A DNA stretch of 64,000 nt, taken from Paenibacillus sp. SYP-B4298 (GTDB taxonomy: Bacteria; Bacillota; Bacilli; Paenibacillales; Paenibacillaceae). The stretch lies in contig NZ_CP115484.1 of NCBI RefSeq assembly GCF_027627475.1, forward strand, positions 2,092,001 through 2,156,000. Reading direction: 5' to 3'. Below are positions 19,282 to 31,405 of this stretch, one piece after another. The translations under genes and the position numbers were made by a program. How positions within the stretch are numbered: position 1 is the first letter of the stretch; each line of letters opens with the position of its first letter. Below the pieces are notes generated by a model that saw nothing but the letters and a program-made list of their open reading frames with translations, searched no databases and had not been told where the DNA came from.

Positions 19282-19358
19282 TGGCGGAGCCGACGGGATT
19301 CGAACCCGCGGTCTCCTGCGTGACAGGCAGGCATGTTAGGCCTCTACACCACGGCTCC
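19282..19358 (-). tRNA. tRNA-Asp (GUC), CCA encoded
   Basis: The minus strand reads a full cloverleaf of 77 bases with CCA. The acceptor stem GGAGCCG pairs with CGGCTCC, discriminator G. The anticodon arm is CCTGC-CTGTCAC-GCAGG with anticodon GTC, and the T arm contains GGTTCGAATCC. The anticodon arm is the same as in Bacillus tRNA-Asp. G34 is the base converted to queuosine, the target of the adjacent gluQRS product. Confidence 0.97.
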
Positions 19359-19658: not shown

Positions 19659-19759
19659 GTACAGTAACGCCTCCTATTCTATCTCAATTCTAATGGAATT
19701 AAAAATAGAAGTCGAGGCTCGAATTCTGATGACGATTGCATTAGGAATGTACGAGCTCA

Positions 19760-19979
19760 CTCTTTCTATTCATCTCACATCGCTATGAGCAAGGCAGCCT
19801 CGTCATCACCTCCAACCTAGAGTTCTCTAGCTGGGTAGATGTATTTGGGAGATCCTGCACTGACCACAGCCTTGCTAGATCGGCTGACCCATCACTCACA
19901 CATCCTCCTCTTTGATGGCGATTCCTATCGATTCCGTCAAACGTTGGAAGGGCTCGGAAAGGAGAACCTTCGTGAATAA
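19760..19979 (+). pseudogene. istB: IS21-family IstB ATPase, 3' remnant with frameshift
   Basis: Translation from 19760 gives LFLFISHRYEQGSLVITSNL, then a segment FSSWVDVFG. After a one-base insertion at about 19847-19850 it gives [12 protein letters not shown] followed by [17 protein letters not shown], ending at TAA 19977-19979. This is the conserved C-terminal part of IstB, the AAA+ helper of IS21-family transposases. Everything upstream of about 19760, including istA and the ATPase core, is missing, and the frame is broken. So the element is dead, and this is a scar of an earlier insertion beside the tRNA. Confidence 0.8.
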
Positions 19980-20018
19980 CGAAACGAAAGCAGGCAATTG
20001 CTGACGGGAATCGCAGAG

Positions 20019-20135
20019 ATGGAAGCGGCCATCGAGCGTCTGCGCGATGAGATTCAGCACCTGCTGGCAGAACGCGATGCACTGAAACAGGGAAATCTGG
20101 AACTGTACCACAAGCTGATATCCGTTGATTTTTAA
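20019..20135 (+). other. 38-codon coiled-coil reading frame, probable mobile-element remnant
   Basis: Directly after the istB stop codon and in the same frame, ATG 20019 opens a 38-codon frame of heptad-like Leu/Glu/Arg residues (EAAIERLRDEIQHLL and on) ending at TAA 20133-20135. TTG 19998 would add seven residues. No ribosome-binding site is present. It resembles the coiled-coil ends of small transposon accessory proteins. I regard it as a remnant rather than an active gene. The following 80 bases up to the terminator may include the outer end of the old element. Confidence 0.35.
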
Positions 20136-20219
20136 TACAATATGACTGGCGCAACCGCCTCACACTACCGGCAATCTCGGGTGCCCATTTTTACCGCCAT
20201 GGTGTCGACTTTTCGGTTG

Positions 20220-20251
20220 CCGTGTGGACGAATATTCCACACGGCTTTTTT
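20220..20251 (+). terminator. rho-independent terminator
   Basis: CCGTGTGGA at 20220-20228 pairs with TCCACACGG at 20236-20244, followed by C and six T. It closes the IS-remnant stretch and isolates the AT-rich genes downstream from transcription on the left. Confidence 0.85.
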
Positions 20252-20463
20252 ATGTTAATGAGTATCTATTCACTTTCCACATGCAAGACTGCTTTACCCA
20301 GCCATCCTACTTGCCTACATCCCGAACTATGTTCGAAATTTGTTGAGGTATATTCTAATTTGGGCTAAAATCAGAGGATAATGTTACCATTTTTACAGAC
20401 GGGGTACACTAATTCAAAATGTTCGTTTGGATAGTTACAAAGTAGTGGAATTGAGGAATTGGT

Positions 20464-21648
20464 ATGGATGATTTAGAATTTTACGAGAAGAGTATTCAGA
20501 AGATTGCAGAAAGCCAGAGACTAGATTTAATTAATGCTGCAACATATCTTCAAAATCAATTGGTGAATGATCCCAATATTATAATGCGGTTAATCACAAT
20601 TAGAAGACAACTTCTAACTAAGGAAGAGGTTGGAACTGGTCTGGAGTATTATATAAGAGCATTTTTCCCACAGCAAACTGAGGAAGAGCAATCAACCTTA
20701 GTTAGAATATCGTTGGAGATTTCAGACGCAAGCAGAATCTTTTATCAGTATCTTTCCTTTAATGAGTATCATCCCTCCCAACCCATTTTCCAACATCATC
20801 CAGATTTGTTTGGGAAGTTACGTAGAAAATCAAGTGGAAATCCTGATCTAGAATTGCTCCGATTGGATGCAGTGGCTTTTGATCCTCCACTAAATTCTCC
20901 GAAGTACAGGACTTGTAAGTACAAAGGTTCCTTTCTCTTAACTGCTAGCTATCTTAATGCAATGGTTCCCTACTTTTTGATCCATAAATATGGAACCGAA
21001 CATTTGTATATTAGGCTCGATCCTTACTGTATCTCAAAAAATGAACCACCGCCCCTTGTTGAAGAAGAGTTTGTTCAACCGCCGAATCCACATTGGATTG
21101 AACGTTTATTGATTTACCCTAATCAACATGAGGGGAGTGAATTATTTTTGCCGTCCTATACTATTGAGGAGGCTGCGGGAGATGATTGGAAGTATCAGCA
21201 GTGGTTTGAGTATTGTAGGTATGGTATCCGAAAGTTACAAGTAGTAGCTACGATGAAGAATGAGGGCAGCAAGAAACACTTCAGCATGTCATTAGAGGAA
21301 CTATCCGAGGAAGAAATTGAAGACGGCAATTTAATTGGACGAATGATTCATTTGGACGCAATTGATTCATATGATATGCCGTTCGAGAAAGTACGACTTA
21401 ATCATCTGGATCTTGCAATAAATGTCTACCGAGGAAATAGCATTCAAGAGCGAATGAATTCGACATTAACATCAGGTAAGCGAATCACAGATGCAACTTA
21501 TCGAACCCACCTGATTCGAGCGGACAACATAATGTTCTCCGATCTTCTCGAAATTGCTCATATCTTCTTCAAATCTAAGACAATGGTTAAGGAATGGATA
21601 GATTATCAATTCCAGTTTTTTGCCAAAGGGGCTGAAAACGATTCCTAG
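20464..21648 (+). CDS. hypothetical 394-aa protein of the AT-rich island
   Basis: I recognise no family. ATG 20464 follows GAGGAA. The protein is soluble, acidic in its N-terminal third and probably mixed alpha/beta. It has a run of aromatic and Pro residues near 165-215 (YRTCKYKGSFLL, then NAMVPYFLIHKYG) and a helical C-terminal end. No nucleotide-binding loop, signal peptide or membrane helix is visible. Base composition is AT-rich like the two large genes that follow, and unlike the rest of the window. It is separated from them by 396 bases, so it probably has its own promoter. It may be an independent cargo gene or a third part of the same system. Confidence 0.7.
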   Translation: MDDLEFYEKSIQKIAESQRLDLINAATYLQNQLVNDPNIIMRLITIRRQLLTKEEVGTGLEYYIRAFFPQQTEEEQSTLVRISLEISDASRIFYQYLSFNEYHPSQPIFQHHPDLFGKLRRKSSGNPDLELLRLDAVAFDPPLNSPKYRTCKYKGSFLLTASYLNAMVPYFLIHKYGTEHLYIRLDPYCISKNEPPPLVEEEFVQPPNPHWIERLLIYPNQHEGSELFLPSYTIEEAAGDDWKYQQWFEYCRYGIRKLQVVATMKNEGSKKHFSMSLEELSEEEIEDGNLIGRMIHLDAIDSYDMPFEKVRLNHLDLAINVYRGNSIQERMNSTLTSGKRITDATYRTHLIRADNIMFSDLLEIAHIFFKSKTMVKEWIDYQFQFFAKGAENDS

Positions 21649-22044
21649 GGTGCTTAATCTTATTTATCTTACGTAGAAAACACGACCAAAAATTCTGCGA
21701 TTGATTTATCGAAAATAGATGGAGAGCACTTGAGAAATGAAAGAGTTTAAAACAGAGCAACCGAGATTCGGCATGACACATAATTACGATAGAACAATAC
21801 TGATCCTCAGACGGTTACGATACAAATATAAAAAATGCACAATTTCAGTTATGATGTAACTTGACCTGATGTGTGAGCGGCAGTGTAAAATCCCGTGTAA
21901 CAGTGCTTGAAAATCCCCATAAACGGCAGACAATCTCGCCTGGGGGAGAGCGAATAATCCATGGCACAACGCATGACGAGCCCATGCAGCGGCTGCTCTA
22001 AGTCTTTCGAAAATATTTAGACAGTTTAAATGGAGGTTAGTTAA
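21649..22044. other. 396-base intergenic region with a GC-richer patch
   Basis: No convincing gene. The first 200 bases are AT-rich. From about 21865 to 21995 the composition changes to GC-richer sequence that looks foreign to its surroundings and may be a degraded mobile-element end. The last 50 bases (AT-rich, then TGGAGG at 22031-22036) should hold the promoter and ribosome-binding site of the STAND gene. Short open frames here have no start signals. Confidence 0.4.
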
Positions 22045-25000
22045 GTGACGGAATATACAAGATCTGGTGCGAGAAGGTCTGGCGATTACCTACAGGACTT
22101 GGTAGCTTTAGAAAACATGATTGAAATGCTAGAGCATCCAAAAAGATTTTATTATATTAAAGTGGAAGCTGATGAAGCTGGATACCTAGATGATGTGGTT
22201 GCTCTAAAAACAGATGGAAGCTATGTTGTTAAACAAGTTAAATTTTCAACACATCCTGAACAAGATGATGAAGAATATACTTGGGATAAACTTTTAGAAG
22301 AAAGGGAAGGCAAAAGGAAATTGCTTCCCTCATTGCTGAAGAAATGGGCGTCGTCTGTCTTAGAAATAAAGCAAAGAGGTTTATTACACGAAGCCAGTCT
22401 AATTACCAATAGAAAGGCAGCACAAGAAATATTGGTGACATTATTACCGAACGGTCATATTAATTTTGACATGATATCGGAGGGGTACCGAGAAGAGATA
22501 ATTCGACAAATAGGTGAAGAAGCAGTTGCAAGGGAATTTTTTGATTCCTTTTTCTTTAGATTTGATTGTGCAGGACTCGAGGATTATGAAGAAGCGTTAA
22601 AGCGAAGATTTTATAAAATTGGTGGTTCGGATCACGGATGGTTAAACTTAAAGGATGAATTGTACTTCTGGGTGAGAAACAAAAATATTCCAGAACCAAA
22701 CGGCGAAATAACTTTGTCTCAAGTACGAGCGGCAGCAAGATGGTATCAATTACAGTCCTTGCCACAACAATTTGAGATTCCGGAAGATTATGTATTGCCT
22801 TCGGAAGAATTTCATACAGATTTTATAAGTGAAATTACTGCGAGTTCTGAGGGGTGTTATGTACTTACTGCCAGTCCTGGTATGGGTAAAAGTACGTATT
22901 TAAGCTATTTGTATGATTCTTTAGAATCAGACGGTTATCCAGTTATAAGGCATCATTATTTTTTGTCAACGACGGATCGAACTGTGGGACGTTTAGATTC
23001 ACTCAAAGTAGCAGAATCCTTAATGAATGATATTTTAACTAAATATCCACTTTCATTACAAGGACTTGAAACTAATAATCCTAATCCGAAGCACTTTTCT
23101 GAGTGGATTAATTCCGCCGCTAAATATTATTCAGATAAAAGTAAGGCGTTAATAGTTATCATTGACGGCCTCGATCATGTATGGAGAGATCAGGGGACAG
23201 CTGATGAATTAAACAAGCTGTTTGAAAACTTAATTCCGATTCCACATGGAATTATTATTATTTTGGGTACACAGCCTGTAGATGAAACTATGCTACCAAC
23301 TAGGCTAACCACAACTGTTCCGAGGGATAGATGGTTAGAAATCCCTTTGTTAGATATAACAGCAGTCATTGAGTGGCTTCAAAAACAAGAGATTAGTGAC
23401 GAACTCTTTGATTCCGATGACGATCGTATAAATGAATACAGATTAAATCAACTCGCCTCTGCATTTCATGAGAAAACAACAGGTAATCCTCTTCATTTGA
23501 GATATTCACTAAAGTCCTTGTTAGAACAAAATAAACAAATCAACACAGAAAATATTAGTTCTCTACCTGAGTGTTCACATGAAGGGATTATTGGTTATTA
23601 TAGAACATTGTGGCAAAGATTAAGTGAACAGAGTCGAAGTATACTCCATCTTTTTGCAGCATGTCCCTTTTTATGGCCAGATCAAGGGATTATAGATTGT
23701 CTTGATCCTCAAATGCAGAGAATTGCTGAGGTTAGAGAGGGCCTTAGGATGATCAGGCATCTGTTAATATTCGATACTTTAGGGATGAGGCCTTATCATA
23801 GCAGCTTAATAGTATTTGTCCAAGGTCAGGAAGGATTTGAAGATTATTCGATTAGGCTAAAACGCATGGCACTTGATTGGCTACAAGAATCTGCGCCGGA
23901 ATACTTGCGTTGGGCTTATACTTGGAGATTAGAAGCAGATTTAGGCAATGTGGAAAGCTTAATAAATGGTCCCGATAGAAAATGGGTTGTTGATTCTATA
24001 AGAAAGAAACGCCCGACCAAAGAAATATCGACTATTTTAGGAATGAGTGCATGGTATGCAATTCTTCAGGGGGATTTATCAAAGTTTATAGAATTAGGTT
24101 TATTACGTGATTATCATCATGCCATTCAAGATGAACGTCCTGAAACTTTTCACTCAGTCACAAGAACGCAACTGTTATTACAAGAAGATTCCTATTTAAG
24201 TCCGCTGCTAATACAAAATATCTCCGGCTTAAGCGAAACAGAAATTGAGGCTTTAGCTGAGGTTGAGTACATCAAAGGTAATATTAATGCAGTTGAAATA
24301 TGTTTTAACGAGTTAAACAATCGCCTTGCTAAAAAGCAGGATTCTTCGTCTTGGAATCGAGTAGCTAAGGTGAGCCTAAAATTGGCGGCGCTAAATGATA
24401 TAGAACCAAAAAAAGTATTAAAGTTTTGTGTGGAAACAAATTCTGAAGAGTTGATACCCGATTATGCGGAAGCATTAAGTGGTTTTAAGCTATTAAGTCC
24501 TCTCCGAGAACTGGTGGTGAAAATAAAAGATCATTCATCTATAAAAGAGATTGATCAAGTTTTACGATGCTTGTCTCTACTGGCAATCGAGGATGAAATA
24601 AATATAGGGCATATTCAACAGGATTTTAATCAAAACGCATACATTGCAATATATTCTGTCCTCAAAGATGGGATTATTGATTATACGGTAAAATTCCCAG
24701 AAACATCAATATTAAAATTAAAGGAATACGAATTATATCGGTATGAAAACGAATTAGTCTGGTTTTTTCAAACAACATTTTTCTGCTTGCTCGCAAATCA
24801 TCTGATGAATAAGAGTGAAAGTAATATTGCTTGGATGAGAAGTAATGTAAGTATAAATACTTGGCCGAAACAACTGCTTAGTATTTTCAATGATATTGCA
24901 AAGGATTTGGCTGTGGAATTAATTAAGAAAGATCCTCCTGTGTTTGGTTGGTTTTATGAAAGGATGTCTGATTTAGATTTACCGAATTGGCCGGAAGATA

Positions 25001-26427
25001 GGGATGTTTATGAATTTGGTAAGTACGCCAAAAAAGCAATAGATTTTATCGGTCTGGATTTGCAGAGAATATTTATGTCAATAAAACCACAGCAGTATAT
25101 ATCAATTGATGACTTTAATTTTGCCATAACTTCTGGTTATTTTTATGTGTGGAATTGGATTCCTGCGTATCTTAAAAACAATAGAGATATAGTTAGCCCA
25201 GAAGCCGCTCAATGGTTGATTAATAGAGAACAAGGAAATCTAAATTCTTCAATTGATACGTTCTCTGAGAGGGCAGACTGCTATGCAAAGTTGTCCAATC
25301 TCGCTAGTTTCCATAAGCTTCGTGATAAAACAATTCCCTTATTAGATTTATGCTGTGAGAATCTTTACGCTCATGGCGATCACAAGGATATGTTGTTATT
25401 TGGGGCATTAGAATTAATTCAGCTTTGTCACAAGCATAATATAGGTGAAGTTCGAAAGTGGTTAGAGAGCCTTATCATTCCAATAATTCAGATTAGTGAT
25501 TTTACGGATGGAGACGAGACACGACATTTACCAATAGAAATTGGAGAAGTTCTTTCCGAGGTTTGGCCTGAAGTACTTAAGGATTATTATTTAGAATTAT
25601 GCAATCGAGAGAAGTATTACGAAGCAGAGCAGGCCTTTAGAAACTACATTAAAATAATGGAATATGATAATAAAATAAATGTTGCAATTGCTAAAACAGC
25701 TATAGATAGTGAGAGTTTGCAAATATTGAATCAACTAGCCAATGATGGTAATGAGAGAGCTGAAATAGTCTTGAGTTTTAACAAGCAATATAAAATAGCT
25801 GGGCATTCAAAAGAAGTGGTGAATACAAAAGCACCTGTAGTCGAAAAGCCTACGGTATCATTCCCCAACCCTGAGAAATACCCTCCCTCTGATTTTGGAA
25901 TGTACCTACATACTGTAAGAGAATACAGTTCTTATAAGGAGGGAGCCATTGTTCATTGGTTTAATTATTGGCTTAGCAAAAATGCTGACGATGCCTATAG
26001 CATAATTAAAGAGGAGTTTGAAAGAGGAAGAAGGTTGGTTGACTATGATACCTTATTTAACTTAATCCGAAGTCATTTTGGAAGTGCAGAAGCCTACCAG
26101 TGGCTTGTAGAGGCGCATAAAGAAGGGTACGGATGGTTTAGGTATGTTAGTAGCAGATCTAATGAGGAAATAAGGTGGGCATACATTGTAAGATTTTACC
26201 CACAGCGGTGGTTAGAATTTATCATCGATACCTTCAAAGAGCGTGGTTCAGAGCCTTGGAGAAAAGTCGGGACCAGAAATACATTCGTAAGACTTACTCA
26301 ATATTGTGTAGTTACAGGACATCAGGATATTGCAGAGATAGTAGCTCATAAAACTATGGATACAATAAAGTCTTTTTTAAGTCCATTAAATTTCCCCAGA
26401 GTAGAATGGAGGTCCGACCTTGACTAA
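22045..26427 (+). CDS. Cap4-like nuclease / STAND NTPase fusion protein (Avs-like), putative phage defence
   Basis: 1460-aa protein starting at GTG 22045, nine bases after GGAGG. The N-terminal domain (1 to about 200) has the pattern of Cap4/DUF4297-type PD-(D/E)xK nucleases: an early RSGDYLQDLVAL helix, Glu41, the acidic pair Asp49-Asp50, then QVK at 64-66. A STAND/NACHT-type NTPase follows (about 255-560) with Walker A ASPGMGKST (276-284), Walker B LIVIIDGLDHV (369-379) and the NPLHL motif (481-485) typical of STAND proteins. The remaining 900 residues are predicted helical and repeat-like, the usual sensor position. Avs proteins have this plan: the C-terminus binds a phage protein and the nuclease is switched on. 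The AT-rich base composition and the overlap with a partner gene support transferred defence cargo. The subfamily is not assigned. Confidence 0.75.
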   Translation: MTEYTRSGARRSGDYLQDLVALENMIEMLEHPKRFYYIKVEADEAGYLDDVVALKTDGSYVVKQVKFSTHPEQDDEEYTWDKLLEEREGKRKLLPSLLKKWASSVLEIKQRGLLHEASLITNRKAAQEILVTLLPNGHINFDMISEGYREEIIRQIGEEAVAREFFDSFFFRFDCAGLEDYEEALKRRFYKIGGSDHGWLNLKDELYFWVRNKNIPEPNGEITLSQVRAAARWYQLQSLPQQFEIPEDYVLPSEEFHTDFISEITASSEGCYVLTASPGMGKSTYLSYLYDSLESDGYPVIRHHYFLSTTDRTVGRLDSLKVAESLMNDILTKYPLSLQGLETNNPNPKHFSEWINSAAKYYSDKSKALIVIIDGLDHVWRDQGTADELNKLFENLIPIPHGIIIILGTQPVDETMLPTRLTTTVPRDRWLEIPLLDITAVIEWLQKQEISDELFDSDDDRINEYRLNQLASAFHEKTTGNPLHLRYSLKSLLEQNKQINTENISSLPECSHEGIIGYYRTLWQRLSEQSRSILHLFAACPFLWPDQGIIDCLDPQMQRIAEVREGLRMIRHLLIFDTLGMRPYHSSLIVFVQGQEGFEDYSIRLKRMALDWLQESAPEYLRWAYTWRLEADLGNVESLINGPDRKWVVDSIRKKRPTKEISTILGMSAWYAILQGDLSKFIELGLLRDYHHAIQDERPETFHSVTRTQLLLQEDSYLSPLLIQNISGLSETEIEALAEVEYIKGNINAVEICFNELNNRLAKKQDSSSWNRVAKVSLKLAALNDIEPKKVLKFCVETNSEELIPDYAEALSGFKLLSPLRELVVKIKDHSSIKEIDQVLRCLSLLAIEDEINIGHIQQDFNQNAYIAIYSVLKDGIIDYTVKFPETSILKLKEYELYRYENELVWFFQTTFFCLLANHLMNKSESNIAWMRSNVSINTWPKQLLSIFNDIAKDLAVELIKKDPPVFGWFYERMSDLDLPNWPEDRDVYEFGKYAKKAIDFIGLDLQRIFMSIKPQQYISIDDFNFAITSGYFYVWNWIPAYLKNNRDIVSPEAAQWLINREQGNLNSSIDTFSERADCYAKLSNLASFHKLRDKTIPLLDLCCENLYAHGDHKDMLLFGALELIQLCHKHNIGEVRKWLESLIIPIIQISDFTDGDETRHLPIEIGEVLSEVWPEVLKDYYLELCNREKYYEAEQAFRNYIKIMEYDNKINVAIAKTAIDSESLQILNQLANDGNERAEIVLSFNKQYKIAGHSKEVVNTKAPVVEKPTVSFPNPEKYPPSDFGMYLHTVREYSSYKEGAIVHWFNYWLSKNADDAYSIIKEEFERGRRLVDYDTLFNLIRSHFGSAEAYQWLVEAHKEGYGWFRYVSSRSNEEIRWAYIVRFYPQRWLEFIIDTFKERGSEPWRKVGTRNTFVRLTQYCVVTGHQDIAEIVAHKTMDTIKSFLSPLNFPRVEWRSDLD

Positions 26428-27871
26428 TGAATTTGATTTATTGTTTGCAAGGTTGGAGTGGCCTTCTGGTCTTGTAAGGGAAAGGGCTTGCTTGGCAATT
26501 GCTGAACTTTTATGCGATCCAAGTGAATCAGAAATAACTTTCGCATATCTTAAGGATTGGATTAAAGCACAGAAGCTTGAGAGTATTTCCCTATATGGTT
26601 TGATAATACTTCACAAAGCTCGATCTATTAAACCAGATTTATGTTTTCCAGAAGACGTGACATCTAATATTTTCAAACCATCTATATTAACGAATTTATT
26701 ATTGATTGAACTAGGCATGCTACCACAGGATTTAAATCATTCGTTTTTTATCATGGAACGAGAAGAAGTGCCTAAGAGCCATGAAAAGTTTTTTGCAAGG
26801 AATTTGAAAGTTTATCCTGGTGCCTACATTGTTGAGAGAATAGATCAAAAAACTGGAAATAATTTTTCCGAACATTGGTTACACGAGTGGAGTAATATTG
26901 TTTCAGAATTAAACCTTAAACTTTCCAGAGAGTCCTTTAATTATTGGGGGAGAGAAGACTCAGAACATTATTCTGTTTTTGATGTGATGTTCAGTGAGAT
27001 ATATCGGTCAGCATTTTTAAGGTCGCTAGCTTGGGCCGTGAACCAACACGGCTTCAATCTCCATGAGGCAATTTTTTTGGCTTTAAGAAATTGCCCAGTG
27101 GATCTAGGTCTTTGGAATGTGAAGGTAGGCAATAAACCTGATGATTGGCCATTTGTAGAGAAACTTGAAAGTGAAATTGACACTACACCAAGTAAGATAT
27201 GGAATCAAGTTAATGAACTTTGGTCAAAGCAACAAACAAGTAAAAATAATTTAGTACATGCCAGTGGAATAGTTCATACATCTGATAATTTAGTTTATCA
27301 TCTTCAAATTATAGGAGTTTTACAAAAATGTATTGGTAAAGAGGAGCCAGACATCGAAGAGATCCATGATCACTTGGAAAGAGGATTTGGCTTCGGACCA
27401 TCAAAGCTAGTTTTCAATGGAAGGTTAAAAAAAGAGGAGATAGAAGGTATCCAGTCAGGTGATTGGCTTATTATGCCTCTAACTAAAAATATTTGGCCTG
27501 CAACTATTCCTCGTTGGCAATTTTGGAGGATGAACAGTATTTACCTTCCACATGGAGCTCTCACTGAGGAACCATTGGAGTATGAGTGTACTGAAGAGTC
27601 AATTCAAATATTAAAATATGGTGCTGTAATTGGCGAGTGGAAGGACTGGATGTATGGCTTCACTGAGAAGACAGAGGCCAATTTACCGCCGAATACCGGT
27701 AGCGTTCTCGATCTAAATAAAGAAATAATACAGTCCTTATGCGAGGAAATGGAAATGACCTTCAGTTGGCTTTGTAAAATATCATGTTTCTCTAGAGAGT
27801 ATAGTTATGAGAAATACAAAACAACTCATTTCTATGATAAATTCGGTGGAACAAACATTATCCTACCTTAA
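26420..27871 (+). CDS. hypothetical 483-aa partner of the STAND nuclease
   Basis: Starts at TTG 26420, inside the last codons of the STAND gene (eight-base overlap), with GGAGG upstream; coupling is therefore tight and the two products should be made together. The first 90 residues look like helical HEAT-type repeats (LVRERACLAIAELL, LYGLIILHKA). The middle (about 110-330) is mixed, and the C-terminal third contains several Trp-rich strands (GDWLIMPL, IWPATIPRWQFWRMN). I see no catalytic motif, signal or membrane helix and recognise no family. A terminator follows, so the operon has two genes. It could be an adaptor, a second sensor or a regulator of the nuclease. Confidence 0.75.
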   Translation: MTNEFDLLFARLEWPSGLVRERACLAIAELLCDPSESEITFAYLKDWIKAQKLESISLYGLIILHKARSIKPDLCFPEDVTSNIFKPSILTNLLLIELGMLPQDLNHSFFIMEREEVPKSHEKFFARNLKVYPGAYIVERIDQKTGNNFSEHWLHEWSNIVSELNLKLSRESFNYWGREDSEHYSVFDVMFSEIYRSAFLRSLAWAVNQHGFNLHEAIFLALRNCPVDLGLWNVKVGNKPDDWPFVEKLESEIDTTPSKIWNQVNELWSKQQTSKNNLVHASGIVHTSDNLVYHLQIIGVLQKCIGKEEPDIEEIHDHLERGFGFGPSKLVFNGRLKKEEIEGIQSGDWLIMPLTKNIWPATIPRWQFWRMNSIYLPHGALTEEPLEYECTEESIQILKYGAVIGEWKDWMYGFTEKTEANLPPNTGSVLDLNKEIIQSLCEEMEMTFSWLCKISCFSREYSYEKYKTTHFYDKFGGTNIILP

Positions 27872-27976
27872 ATTTTGAAGAGATTGGCAATTGCTAATTT
27901 ATTAGGTGATCCCAAAACTATTCCAACCAATTAGAGCTAACCACATTTGATACTTATTGAGACTGAATGGAATGAA

Positions 27977-28014
27977 AACCAGCACGCTTCAACTTGGGAG
28001 CAGCTGGTTTTTTT
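27977..28014 (+). terminator. terminator after the two-gene STAND operon
   Basis: AACCAGC at 27977-27983 pairs with GCTGGTT at 28003-28009, followed by a T-run to 28014. The loop is long (19 bases), but the position 105 bases after the last stop fits. Confidence 0.6.
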
Positions 28015-28100
28015 AATGAGAAAAATAATTCTTAGTCTATAAGGTTTAGTCGAGTTAATGACATATGTATAAAATACGGGTTTTGTGAAACAGTCTAACC

Positions 28101-28134: not shown

Positions 28135-31100
28135 TTACCGATTGCTCTGGCCAGCCCATACATCCTTAGCATACTGTCCTTCTTCCTCCAGACGCTTGAG
28201 CCAGCTAGCCGATTCTTCGGCATCTTTGTTGTATATCCTGCAATACGCTTGTTGTAATGTGGCCTCGACATCAGGAGCCATTGTGCTTCCATCACCACAG
28301 ATGTACAGCTTGCCGCCTCTGGCCAGTATGTTCAACAGGGTTTCTGCATGCTCATCCATCCTATGCTGAACATAGCATGGCTTCTCTCCATAGCGGGAGA
28401 ATGCTGTATGCAGTGTAACAATGCCTTCCTCGGAATAGGCCTCCAGCTTTTCCCGATAGAGATAGTCAGAAGCGTTGCGGCAACCGAAGAACAGATGTGC
28501 TTCGCCAAGCGCTGCTCCATTATGCTTAAGGGCTTGACGTGCCTGCAGGAAGCCACGGAATGGAGCGACTCCCGTGCCAGGCCCAACCATGATGATTGGC
28601 ACAGATGGATCGTCTGGAAGCTGGAAGCCCGATGCCGGGGTCTGGACGAACACCTGCACCTCATCCTCAGCATGCAGTCCAGCAAGATAGCTGGACGCTA
28701 CACCTCGATATTGCCCTCTCCCGCTCCAGGCAGGTGCATCTACTACAGCTACCGTCAGACTCACTTCACTTGGATGCTGCTTGGGTGAACTGGAGATAGA
28801 GTAATATCTTGGCTTCAGCGGAGGCAGCAGCTCCAGGAAGCAACCCAACGGCAACTCGCATGCTTCATATTTCTCCAGCAAGTCCAGCATGGAAATCCGC
28901 TTGCCCAGAATCACGCTCCGGAATTTATCCTCAGTGAGCAACTTCTCCAACTCTCGCTTATGGGGCGGGCACACCGTCCATTGGGCAAGGGCCTGCAATT
29001 GTGCACGAGTGGCGGTCTCCTGCAGCTCCACACAGTGCTTCAGTAATTCCTGAACTTGAACAGGCTGCTCTAGCGGAAGATGGGCTAGCTTCGCTCCCTT
29101 GCCTTTCAGTACAAGTCTCTCTCCGCCGTGAAGACGGAATCTGCGAAGAACTCGATCGATATTCGCCTTGCTATGGTTAGGCAATACGCCAAGATGGTCT
29201 CCTTCAAGGTAGGAGAGCCCATCAGGCAGCCGAATCCCGATATGTCTTGTGCTACGGTCGCTATCTTGACCCTGCAGCTCCATATTAAACGTTATTCGCG
29301 CACTGACAGTATGATACATTCGGGCAATCGGGCTGATTGTTCCATCCGCTACGAATTCGATCTCTAAGCTATCAGGCTTGTGATTGAACTCGTCCATGCT
29401 TGGCATCTCCAGCCCAAAGGTATCCATTACGTTCTTCCATGTGTTCTCGCGCCAATCGTTAACTAGCTTCTCGAAATCCCCGCTAGCATCTGCTTCAGCG
29501 CGCGGAGACAGCCGGACAGCTCCCTTGCGTTCTAACTGCTCATCGATCCATCGCGGTACATTCTGGTACGTATTGAACCAGTTGCGGTCGCCGCAGCCCA
29601 GGACAGCATAACGAACACCGCTCAGGTCGCCCGCTTCTGTCCGTTCCAGCCAATGAACAAAATTAGCTGCATTGTGTGGAGGCTTACCGTTGTAGGTGGA
29701 CGTCACGATCAGCACAGCCCCGTCCGTCGGCAGCCTGCCCGCCCACTCATTCAATTCGGCCACTTGACTATTGAAGCCATACATTTGAGCAGTATCCGCC
29801 AGCTCTCTAGCAATCCCTTCTGCCGTACCCAGATTAGACCCATACAGGACAAGCAGCGATAATTGATCCGCACCAGCGATAGCTTGCGTTGAGCGTGGGT
29901 TGCCCTCTTTAGCTGAACGAGTCATATCCTCTGGTGAAACCATCGTTTTCGTACTCATGCTGGAGAAGGATAGTTGATGCTTGTCGGGGCGCTGCTTCAC
30001 GCGAATCTTCAAGTCCCCTGGCTTAAGCGTCAAGGTTTGCTTTACATCCAACTGGTAGTCCAGATAATCATCCAGCTCAAATCTCTGCAAGATCATTCCC
30101 AGAACCAGAGTTGCCTCATATAGTGCAAACTGCATCCCGATACACGCTCTTTCGCCATTCCCGAACGGCTTATACGCATGATAAGGAACCTTCGAGGGAT
30201 CAGCGAACCGCTCTGGACGGAACTCTTCTGCATCCTCGCCCCAGGCATCCTTGTCCCGGTGCAGTTGCGGCAGCACGATGCTTATACTCTCTCCTTTTTT
30301 GACCGGGTATTGACCGCCGATCACGGTATCCTCCTTCGCATACACATCAAAGCCTGGCGCAGTTGGCCATAGCCGCAACGATTCATCGAGAATGAGCCGG
30401 ATATACTTGAGCTGGAGTACCTGCTCATAAGACGGCAACGGATCCGTCAATATTTGATCCACTTCCTCATATGCCTTCCGCAGAACCTCCGGGTGATTCA
30501 GCAAGAAATAGATCGCAAAGGACAGCAACCCGCTCGTCGTCTCATGTCCAGCAATTAAGAACGTGATGATCTGATAACGAACATTCTCATCCGATAGTCC
30601 CTCTCCCGTCTCCGGGTCCTTCGAATTCAGCATGCGGGAGAGCAGATCGCTCTCTTCCCCCGTAGCGTTGGCTTTACGCTCCGCGATAATCTTGTCCACA
30701 AGCTTGAACATGGACTGAATATCTGCTTCAAATTGCCTTCTCGTATTAACCATCAGCCAATTCTGGATGCTAAGCCGTGAGCTCTTGAGCATCGCTTCAT
30801 TCAGGGAGCGTACCATGCTGAGGATGAAGGGATCATGTTGTTCTCTATAAAAGCTGTTGAAACGATAATTAAAGCCGCATAGTCCAATCGTATCCAGCGT
30901 TAAGCGTGTCATATCATCGGGAACATCAATGCTCTCGTTGGAATTGAGTCGCGCCCATTTCTGAACGAGCTGCTCAGCTATATCCAGCATCATATTGTGA
31001 TAGCCCTTCATCGCTTGCTTGCCAAAGGTGGGGAGAAGAATATTGTGAGCTTTGCGCCAGTTAGGCTCTGTCGTGTCGCTGGTAAACAGCCCGTCGCCGC

Positions 31101-31359
31101 CGAGAGCCCGCAAATTTTGAAGCTCGCTGTATACATACTTGTCAAACCGCTCTACATCACATGCTTCCTTCACCAACTGGTGACCAGAAATAAAAGTGCC
31201 GGTCTCCCCTAGTACAGAGAGCTGGAAGATTGGCCCATACTCCTGCGCGAGCTTGAGAATAGACAGAGATGGCTTGTCCTTATCGATTAGCGGCAAGTGC
31301 CCAAGCAGTCCAAATGCTTTGGGTTGAGGAATCTTGACCTGTGTAGTGTTCTTCATCAT
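28135..31359 (-). CDS. self-sufficient cytochrome P450 / NADPH-P450 reductase (CYP102A type)
   Basis: 1074-aa fusion that hydroxylates fatty acids near the omega end using its own reductase. The haem domain (1 to about 470) has the I-helix AGHETTSG, the ExxR ESLR, and the haem loop [10 protein letters not shown] with Cys406. A flavodoxin-like FMN domain (about 500-650, [13 protein letters not shown]) and an FAD/NADPH reductase domain (about 670-1074, RYYSISSSP and [12 protein letters not shown]) follow. Length and order match P450 BM3 and B. subtilis CypD/CypB. I start it at ATG 31359 (the next codon is also ATG) after AGAGGTGG; an ORF extension of 13 codons has no ribosome-binding site. A palindrome sits 47 bases upstream. 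Monocistronic. Confidence 0.95.
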
Positions 31360-31405
31360 TAACCACCTCTTGAATAGAATGATTGGGTATGAAGTCATTG
31401 TACCA

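Follow-up and report, generated by a model that had tools for sequence, protein, structure and literature searches.

Two overlapping genes, here called ORF1 and ORF2 (ORF, open reading frame), lie at positions 22045-27871 of the window, the whole stretch of 64,000 nucleotides (nt) of Paenibacillus sp. SYP-B4298 that was analysed (contig NZ_CP115484.1, positions 2,092,001 to 2,156,000). We consider the pair as a candidate immune receptor of the Avs type, whose sensor end would be supplied by a gene of its own. A preliminary description of this DNA had noted two genes overlapping by eight bases and an AT-rich composition, and both observations hold: the overlap is exactly 8 bases (26420-26427), and the GC content is 0.35-0.37 across the operon as compared with about 0.55 in the left part of the window, its first 18 kb. 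Given the overlap and the Shine-Dalgarno sequence located inside ORF1, translation of the two genes is probably coupled. The parts of the pair, with lengths in amino acids (aa), are as follows.

22032-22036, + strand: Shine-Dalgarno sequence GGAGG of ORF1, 8 nt before the GTG
22045-26427, + strand: ORF1 (proposed receptor subunit A), GTG start, 1460 aa; nuclease, STAND NTPase and C-terminal region
22057-22422, + strand: Cap4-type PD-(D/E)xK nuclease core, residues 5-126, with E41, D49, D50, Q64 and K66
22765-23859, + strand: STAND/NACHT-like NTPase region, residues 241-605, with Avs1b and NPHP3_N matches and conserved motifs
about 22870-22896, + strand: Walker A of the ORF1 NTPase
about 23149-23181, + strand: Walker B of the ORF1 NTPase
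near residue 482 of ORF1, + strand: NPLHL motif
24262-26424, + strand: C-terminal region of ORF1, residues 740-1460, from alignments and the model of a fused relative
26408-26412, + strand: Shine-Dalgarno sequence GGAGG of ORF2, within ORF1, 7 nt before the TTG
26420-27871, + strand: ORF2 (proposed receptor subunit B), TTG start, 483 aa; putative C-terminal sensor part encoded in trans
26420-27244, + strand: helical part of ORF2, residues 1-275, the first ~108 HEAT-like (AlphaFold2 model)
27245-27868, + strand: beta-rich part of ORF2, residues 276-483 (AlphaFold2 model)

Domains of ORF1 and fold of ORF2

PADLOC models of Cap4-type PD-(D/E)xK nucleases match residues 5-126 of ORF1 (PDLC02005, 1.2e-16; PDLC00741, 1.5e-15), the PADLOC Avs1b model matches its NTPase (residues 241-605, 9.1e-18), and Pfam NPHP3_N matches at 1.1e-8, above the gathering score, with weaker NACHT/AAA matches. 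An N-terminal effector nuclease on a STAND NTPase, the arrangement of Avs receptors, is thus found in ORF1 as judged by sequence models and not by structure, and the PADLOC models support the Cap4-like nuclease and Avs-type STAND NTPase that had been proposed from inspection. Sequence and profile searches of the PDB gave no useful match, Cap4 (7yib) appearing only at E 1.8. Conservation was counted in 60 ORF1 sequences, that of the window among them, which remained of 77 after dereplication at 80% identity. D50, Q64 and K66 are identical in 60/60, D49 is replaced by E in one sequence (D in 59/60), and position 41 is E in 54/60 and D in 6/60. Because these residues are conserved across the 60 sequences, the nuclease motif read by eye (Glu41, Asp49/50, QVK) appears to be right. 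Likewise, the Walker motifs of the preliminary description are real, as G279, K282 and S283 of Walker A and D374, D377 and H378 of Walker B are kept in all 60. The NPLHL motif stands in part; P482 is kept in 60/60, H484 in only 48/60. Helices are shown only for the last part of the C-terminal region, in the model of the fused relative, and ORF1 ends just past W1455, which is conserved in the alignments.

What kind of protein is ORF2? It had been described as a partner of unknown kind with a HEAT-like part, to be checked by structure prediction. HEAT-like helices are present in the first part of the AlphaFold2 model, and the model as a whole gave the C-terminal fold of Avs: it aligns with residues 1548-2073 of SeAvs3 in PDB 8DGC, a structure solved with terminase. 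The alignment spans residues 1-478 of ORF2, nearly the full length with the beta-rich part included, at about 12% identity across the matched part, and the fold of the Avs C-terminal sensor is found also in the C-terminal half of the fused relative. Profiles A3 and A4 find no match in the 8dgc sequence at E<=10, and the structural match covers the C-terminal part only. ORF2 itself matches nothing in Pfam, PADLOC, NCBIfam or PHROGs at E<=0.1; among the 61 partners of alignment A3 none matches PADLOC or Pfam at E<=0.01, and a single one matches one NCBIfam model, apparently unrelated. In BFVD, one viral protein, A0A2H4PQT3 (670 aa), has the ORF2 fold (Foldseek 3.1e-5, probability 1.00), so that the fold is not purely cellular; this protein is perhaps a virus-borne sensor half or a decoy. 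In four GenBank plasmids (L005, L012, L015, L018) the partner is annotated "multidrug DMT transporter permease", which is a misannotation; in L005, L015 and L018 its annotated start is also placed 66 nt late.

Split and fused relatives

Within the same phylum, one genome gave the first clue: there the partner homologue lies inside a single frame of 1981 aa. Relatives were found by a profile scan of genome contigs with the ORF1 alignment A1, and 80 of the 136 found were analysed. In seven of these 80 loci the contig ends within ORF1 and nothing downstream is available (L085 and L092 have a frame that closes just short of the contig end), and nine, retained in the counts, have more than one matching stretch: five split and three fused loci, all eight in pieces, and L099, an intact fused gene with a 60-aa remnant. 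The 73 testable loci comprise 47 split (5 in pieces) and 26 fused (3 in pieces), and the partner domain adjoins ORF1 in every one of the 73 loci reaching past ORF1. The question raised by the preliminary description, whether partner homologues always adjoin a STAND nuclease, is therefore answered positively, though one-sidedly, because the loci were found through ORF1.

Free partner genes were sought from the other side. In 29 genomes carrying the system, that of L099 not being among them, the partner profile finds no copy elsewhere in the genome, the extra matches in three of them being pieces of the same broken gene. Three of 398 genomes of the phylum of G492 have the partner, G492 included: one in a 1942-aa frame, one adjoining ORF1, and the third, the genome of L038, split. 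The 398 genomes of the window's phylum contain one other partner, inside a fused gene, and their ORF1 matches are the window's own, that fused gene and two partial ones (G124, G147); among 98 relatives of the window the partner occurs only in the window itself. The two partial matches (L136, L137) are each encoded as one chain, 2022 and 2021 aa long, whose similarity to the ORF1 profile begins at the NTPase and runs to about position 1172; no match to the nuclease part or to the partner domain appears at E<=1, and by sequence these single-chain STAND proteins are a neighbouring family. The exception is L099, of Acinetobacter courvalinii, where an intact fused receptor gene is followed, 7.8 kb further on, by a 60-aa ORF (23619-23798); this ORF resembles the last part of the partner profile (2.3e-12), so that the locus holds the remnant of a second sensor end. 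No homologue came out of plasmids, phages or viral contigs when a single partner sequence was the query; this is not evidence of absence, as identity between the window partner and its homologues is only 15-32%.

Both forms occur on plasmids. A tblastn search with ORF1 gave 24 plasmid records, 12 of them covering at least 80% of the query, and 12 regions of the 24 records were examined. Eight of the 12 hold intact copies and four are broken (two Moraxella, Cupriavidus campinensis and one Klebsiella). A single protein of 1907-1922 aa is encoded in three plasmids, of Klebsiella, Pseudoalteromonas and Serratia, and two overlapping genes in five, of Roseibium, Cupriavidus metallidurans, Azonexus, Klebsiella and Pseudomonas. 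Both Cupriavidus copies and that of P. aeruginosa have an in-frame partner start overlapping the ORF1 stop, upstream of the annotated start, which is placed 66 nt late. The split copy of Klebsiella has no megablast match in E. coli. The fused form is found in 4 of 5426 E. coli genomes at >=95% identity, annotated as ATPase or ATP-binding protein; in two E. coli chromosomes (L120, L121) it lies beside ydeP and fimbrial genes and is accompanied by transposase remnants, L120 having in addition integrases and an autotransporter gene on the other side. Viral contigs gave one full relative, which is fused (L100), plus one NTPase fragment, and phages gave no match. As a separate observation, in a Klebsiella plasmid (CP052288, L019) an ORF1 copy is cut short near IS26 elements, beside dfrA14.

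A tree was computed (IQ-TREE, quick, LG+G4) from 77 near full-length one-piece ORF1 sequences, eight from plasmids and one from a viral contig; L060, L062 and L046, whose partner is broken, were kept in the tree and left out of alignment A3. Nine changes between split and fused forms are needed on this tree, at least seven of them forced by starred branches, and shuffled labels need 23 on average. Deep placements are unsure, because the program warns of long branches, and the titles of the records span 15 phylum-level labels, many belonging to metagenome bins whose labels may be wrong. Closest to the window stand P. rigui (99%) and two Chloroflexi bins, each of them with the split form. The clearest recent event sets L035 and L040, split, against L100, fused, with a few bases differing at the joint. 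This close group, and the fused forms in 26 of the 73 loci, would fit decay of a single gene, the window pair then being a fused Avs-like gene of about 1945 aa interrupted by a frameshift, either real or a sequencing error. We regard such decay as very improbable: GGAGG and a start codon are present at the joint, both frames are intact and keep their active-site residues, and 47 loci are split at the same joint with mostly short overlaps. P. rigui, moreover, has the same split at 98.7% identity, which already makes a sequencing error unlikely.

The geometry of the joint bears on a further possibility. Relative to ORF1, the partner gene is in frame +2 in 41 of the 47 splits and in frame +1 in six, and L020, the near-identical copy of the window pair, is +1. 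Of 43 splits analysed, 39 have the start nearest the ORF1 stop between -25 and +3 nt, and a Shine-Dalgarno-like 4-mer precedes this start in 23 of the 43; ATGs lie at -22 in L021 and at -19 in L023, the start of L055 is at -37, and L060 is broken. Overlapping frames, in the same relative position in 41/47, would suit programmed frameshifting, by which part of ORF2 would be made as a fusion to yield a long and a short receptor. Yet the six splits in the other frame include the window's own type, overlap lengths and start codons vary between loci, and the window has a Shine-Dalgarno sequence and a start codon for ORF2. We therefore think programmed frameshifting highly unlikely, although slippery sites were not searched for.

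Known receptors and a proposed mechanism

The bacterial equivalents of NLR immune receptors, Avs receptors are, to our knowledge, single large chains. The window pair reaches neither a curated cut-off nor a full-length model match of Avs1-Avs5; Avs1b matches the NTPase part only. Avs1b (PADLOC PDLC02159, NCBIfam NF041810) is alike in this region, which is matched in 15/27 members by PADLOC and 17/27 by NCBIfam, and its model length of 1924-1931 is close to that of the fused relatives. However, ORF1 scores 46.5 bits in NCBIfam against a cut-off of 1500, and NCBIfam names Avs1b a protease, whereas the N-terminus of ORF1 is a Cap4-type nuclease. Avs2 (PADLOC PDLC02162) shares the STAND NTPase, but hhalign with the ORF1 profile aligns 98 NTPase columns only and the partner profile has no meaningful match; the comparison drew on the Avs2-model matches of two genomes, from which 3/8 loci with a frame >1200 aa were used, two being the same gene. 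No Avs2-Avs5 model is among the matches of the 27 receptors, in libraries where models were confirmed for Avs1b, Avs2 and Avs5 only, and no Avs3-named model is among the matches of the 27 receptors or the 61 partners. Cap4 of CBASS (SAVED-PDDEXK) has a similar N-terminal nuclease domain, 25/27 members matching a Cap4-type endonuclease model; no SAVED domain follows it in the window protein and the plasmid relatives scanned, where the similarity stops at residue 126-130, corresponding to model position 123-130 of 483-489. The nuclease domain of Lamassu LmuA (DUF4297) is matched in 17/27 members, from which ORF1 differs by its long STAND chain; neighbours were not scanned for LmuB. There is also a two-gene AVAST type 3, which we take to consist of Avs3A and Avs3B; none of the 61 partners matches any PADLOC model at E<=0.01, a library in which an Avs3B model is presumably included.

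SeAvs3 (AVAST type 3, PDB 8DGC), which presumably has a STAND NTPase as ORF1 does, resembles the pair in its N-terminal PD-(D/E)xK nuclease and its C-terminal sensor, and differs in that the sensor end of the window pair is on a separate gene, not on the same polypeptide as in Avs. The nuclease class and tetramer mechanism of SeAvs3 are given in an excerpt of PMC11291478. An excerpt of PMC12931631 states that terminase, portal or some other phage protein is what Avs1-Avs4 recognise, that they kill the cell through cleavage of both phage and host DNA, and that PaAvs5 depends on its C-terminal region for immunity.

What the computation shows, namely the domains, the conservation of the active sites, the linkage of the genes, the occurrence of both fused and split forms and the fold of subunit B, is best explained by a single Avs-like immune receptor (a STAND nuclease) that is divided into two subunits, always at the same joint; we give this reading a probability of about three in four. 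In subunit A (ORF1), a Cap4-type DNA nuclease would be followed by the NTPase switch and by a C-terminal region, the last part of which forms helices in the modelled relative. Subunit B (ORF2) would be the C-terminal sensor end, the counterpart of SeAvs3 1548-2073, prolonging the helices of subunit A, as seen in the fused relative, and ending in a divergent beta-rich domain. Made side by side, the subunits would dock non-covalently at the joint, and A and B would jointly hold a conserved phage protein; the analogy with SeAvs3 points to the large terminase as the likeliest one. The NTPase may then drive oligomerisation, upon which the nuclease domains would pair and cut DNA, so that the phage is stopped and the cell probably killed. 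By the same analogy, the window pair should act as an Avs-type receptor with its sensor end docked non-covalently.

Where would the ligand bind? Mean pairwise identity in the 60 ORF1 sequences is 0.34 in the nuclease, 0.37 in the NTPase and 0.32 in residues 501-740, and then 0.17 (741-1100), 0.24 (1101-1280) and 0.26 (1281-1460); in the partner it is 0.26 (1-110), 0.25 (111-250), 0.14 (251-330), 0.19 (331-430) and 0.15 (431-483). Among the most divergent parts of the receptor are the beta-rich end of the partner and the middle of ORF1, and the ligand might bind there.

ORF2 could instead be an accessory regulator of ORF1, such as an inhibitor, a chaperone or a safety catch, its likeness to the Avs3 C-terminus reflecting docking only. 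Such a role has a parallel in PaAvs5, whose C-terminal repeat domain, in the excerpt of PMC12931631, likely both holds the receptor inactive and senses. We nevertheless find it unlikely, given that the part of SeAvs3 with which ORF2 1-478 aligns, beta-rich part included, is the end solved with terminase, and that in fused forms the ORF2 equivalent is the C-terminus of the same chain. The divergence of the beta-rich part (0.14-0.19 versus 0.37 in the NTPase) is that of a ligand-facing part, yet the middle of ORF1 is equally divergent (0.17). Because ORF2 has the fold of the SeAvs3 end and its homologue belongs to the same polypeptide in 26/73 loci, the pair is best read as a split Avs-like receptor and not as a receptor with a novel accessory protein, and the partner of unknown kind in the preliminary description gives way to this identification.

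If the pair is such a split receptor, it may go further and be a natural two-subunit NLR, in which an exchangeable sensor subunit is assembled onto a nuclease-NTPase chain and sensing is gated by both the phage protein and assembly. We put this forward tentatively and with more doubt than confidence. Were it true, repeated fission and fusion at one joint would represent a working design with sensors swappable between receptors, a bacterial analogue of the paired plant NLRs. The literature searched, which did not cover the main Avs papers, holds no description of a two-gene form with the sensor in trans, and an earlier description is possible. A separate sensor gene is a natural cut point: the two halves, sensor and effector, can each be expressed and purified independently and can be exchanged, so that ligand recognition and activation become testable separately. 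Members of this family, in records with 15 phylum-level labels, often have the sensor end on a gene of its own, and defence-gene finders should include the two-gene form; the partner was identified here although PADLOC 2023, NCBIfam 2026, Pfam and PHROGs give it no family name.

The mobile cassette and its surroundings

Two further features concern the DNA around the pair.

19759-28026, no strand assigned: mobile cassette, 98.7% identical to P. rigui L020:1540-9782, with different flanks
20464-21648: ORF of 394 aa in the same cassette, upstream of ORF1

Given this identity and the different flanks, the cassette moved recently between Paenibacillus lineages, and the suspicion of transferred cargo in the preliminary description is borne out by the P. 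rigui copy. The insertion sequence (IS) scar that it also reported is weak: in P. rigui, an ORF read by eye as an IstB-like (IS21 helper) fragment lies across the left end of the shared cassette. No inverted repeats of at least 16 nt were found at the cassette ends, shorter ones not being sought. The 394-aa ORF has no match in Pfam, PADLOC, NCBIfam or PHROGs at E <=0.1; it was considered as a component of the system and dropped, its only significant match among the analysed loci being in P. rigui, and it is probably a passenger of the cassette.

A 29-nt direct repeat, 79% identical, is found at 26492-26520 and 27884-27912, by which a 10-aa piece of the ORF2 start recurs just past the ORF2 stop (E 0.063). 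We considered it as the remnant of a second sensor gene and left it as weak at this length and E value; it is possibly due to chance. About 400 bp to the left of the cassette lies a tRNA-Asp gene (19282-19358, - strand), a possible insertion hotspot, and directly to the right of the cassette an ORF of 1087 aa (28135-31398, - strand) which, by eye, resembles a cytochrome P450 fused to its reductase (BM3-like).

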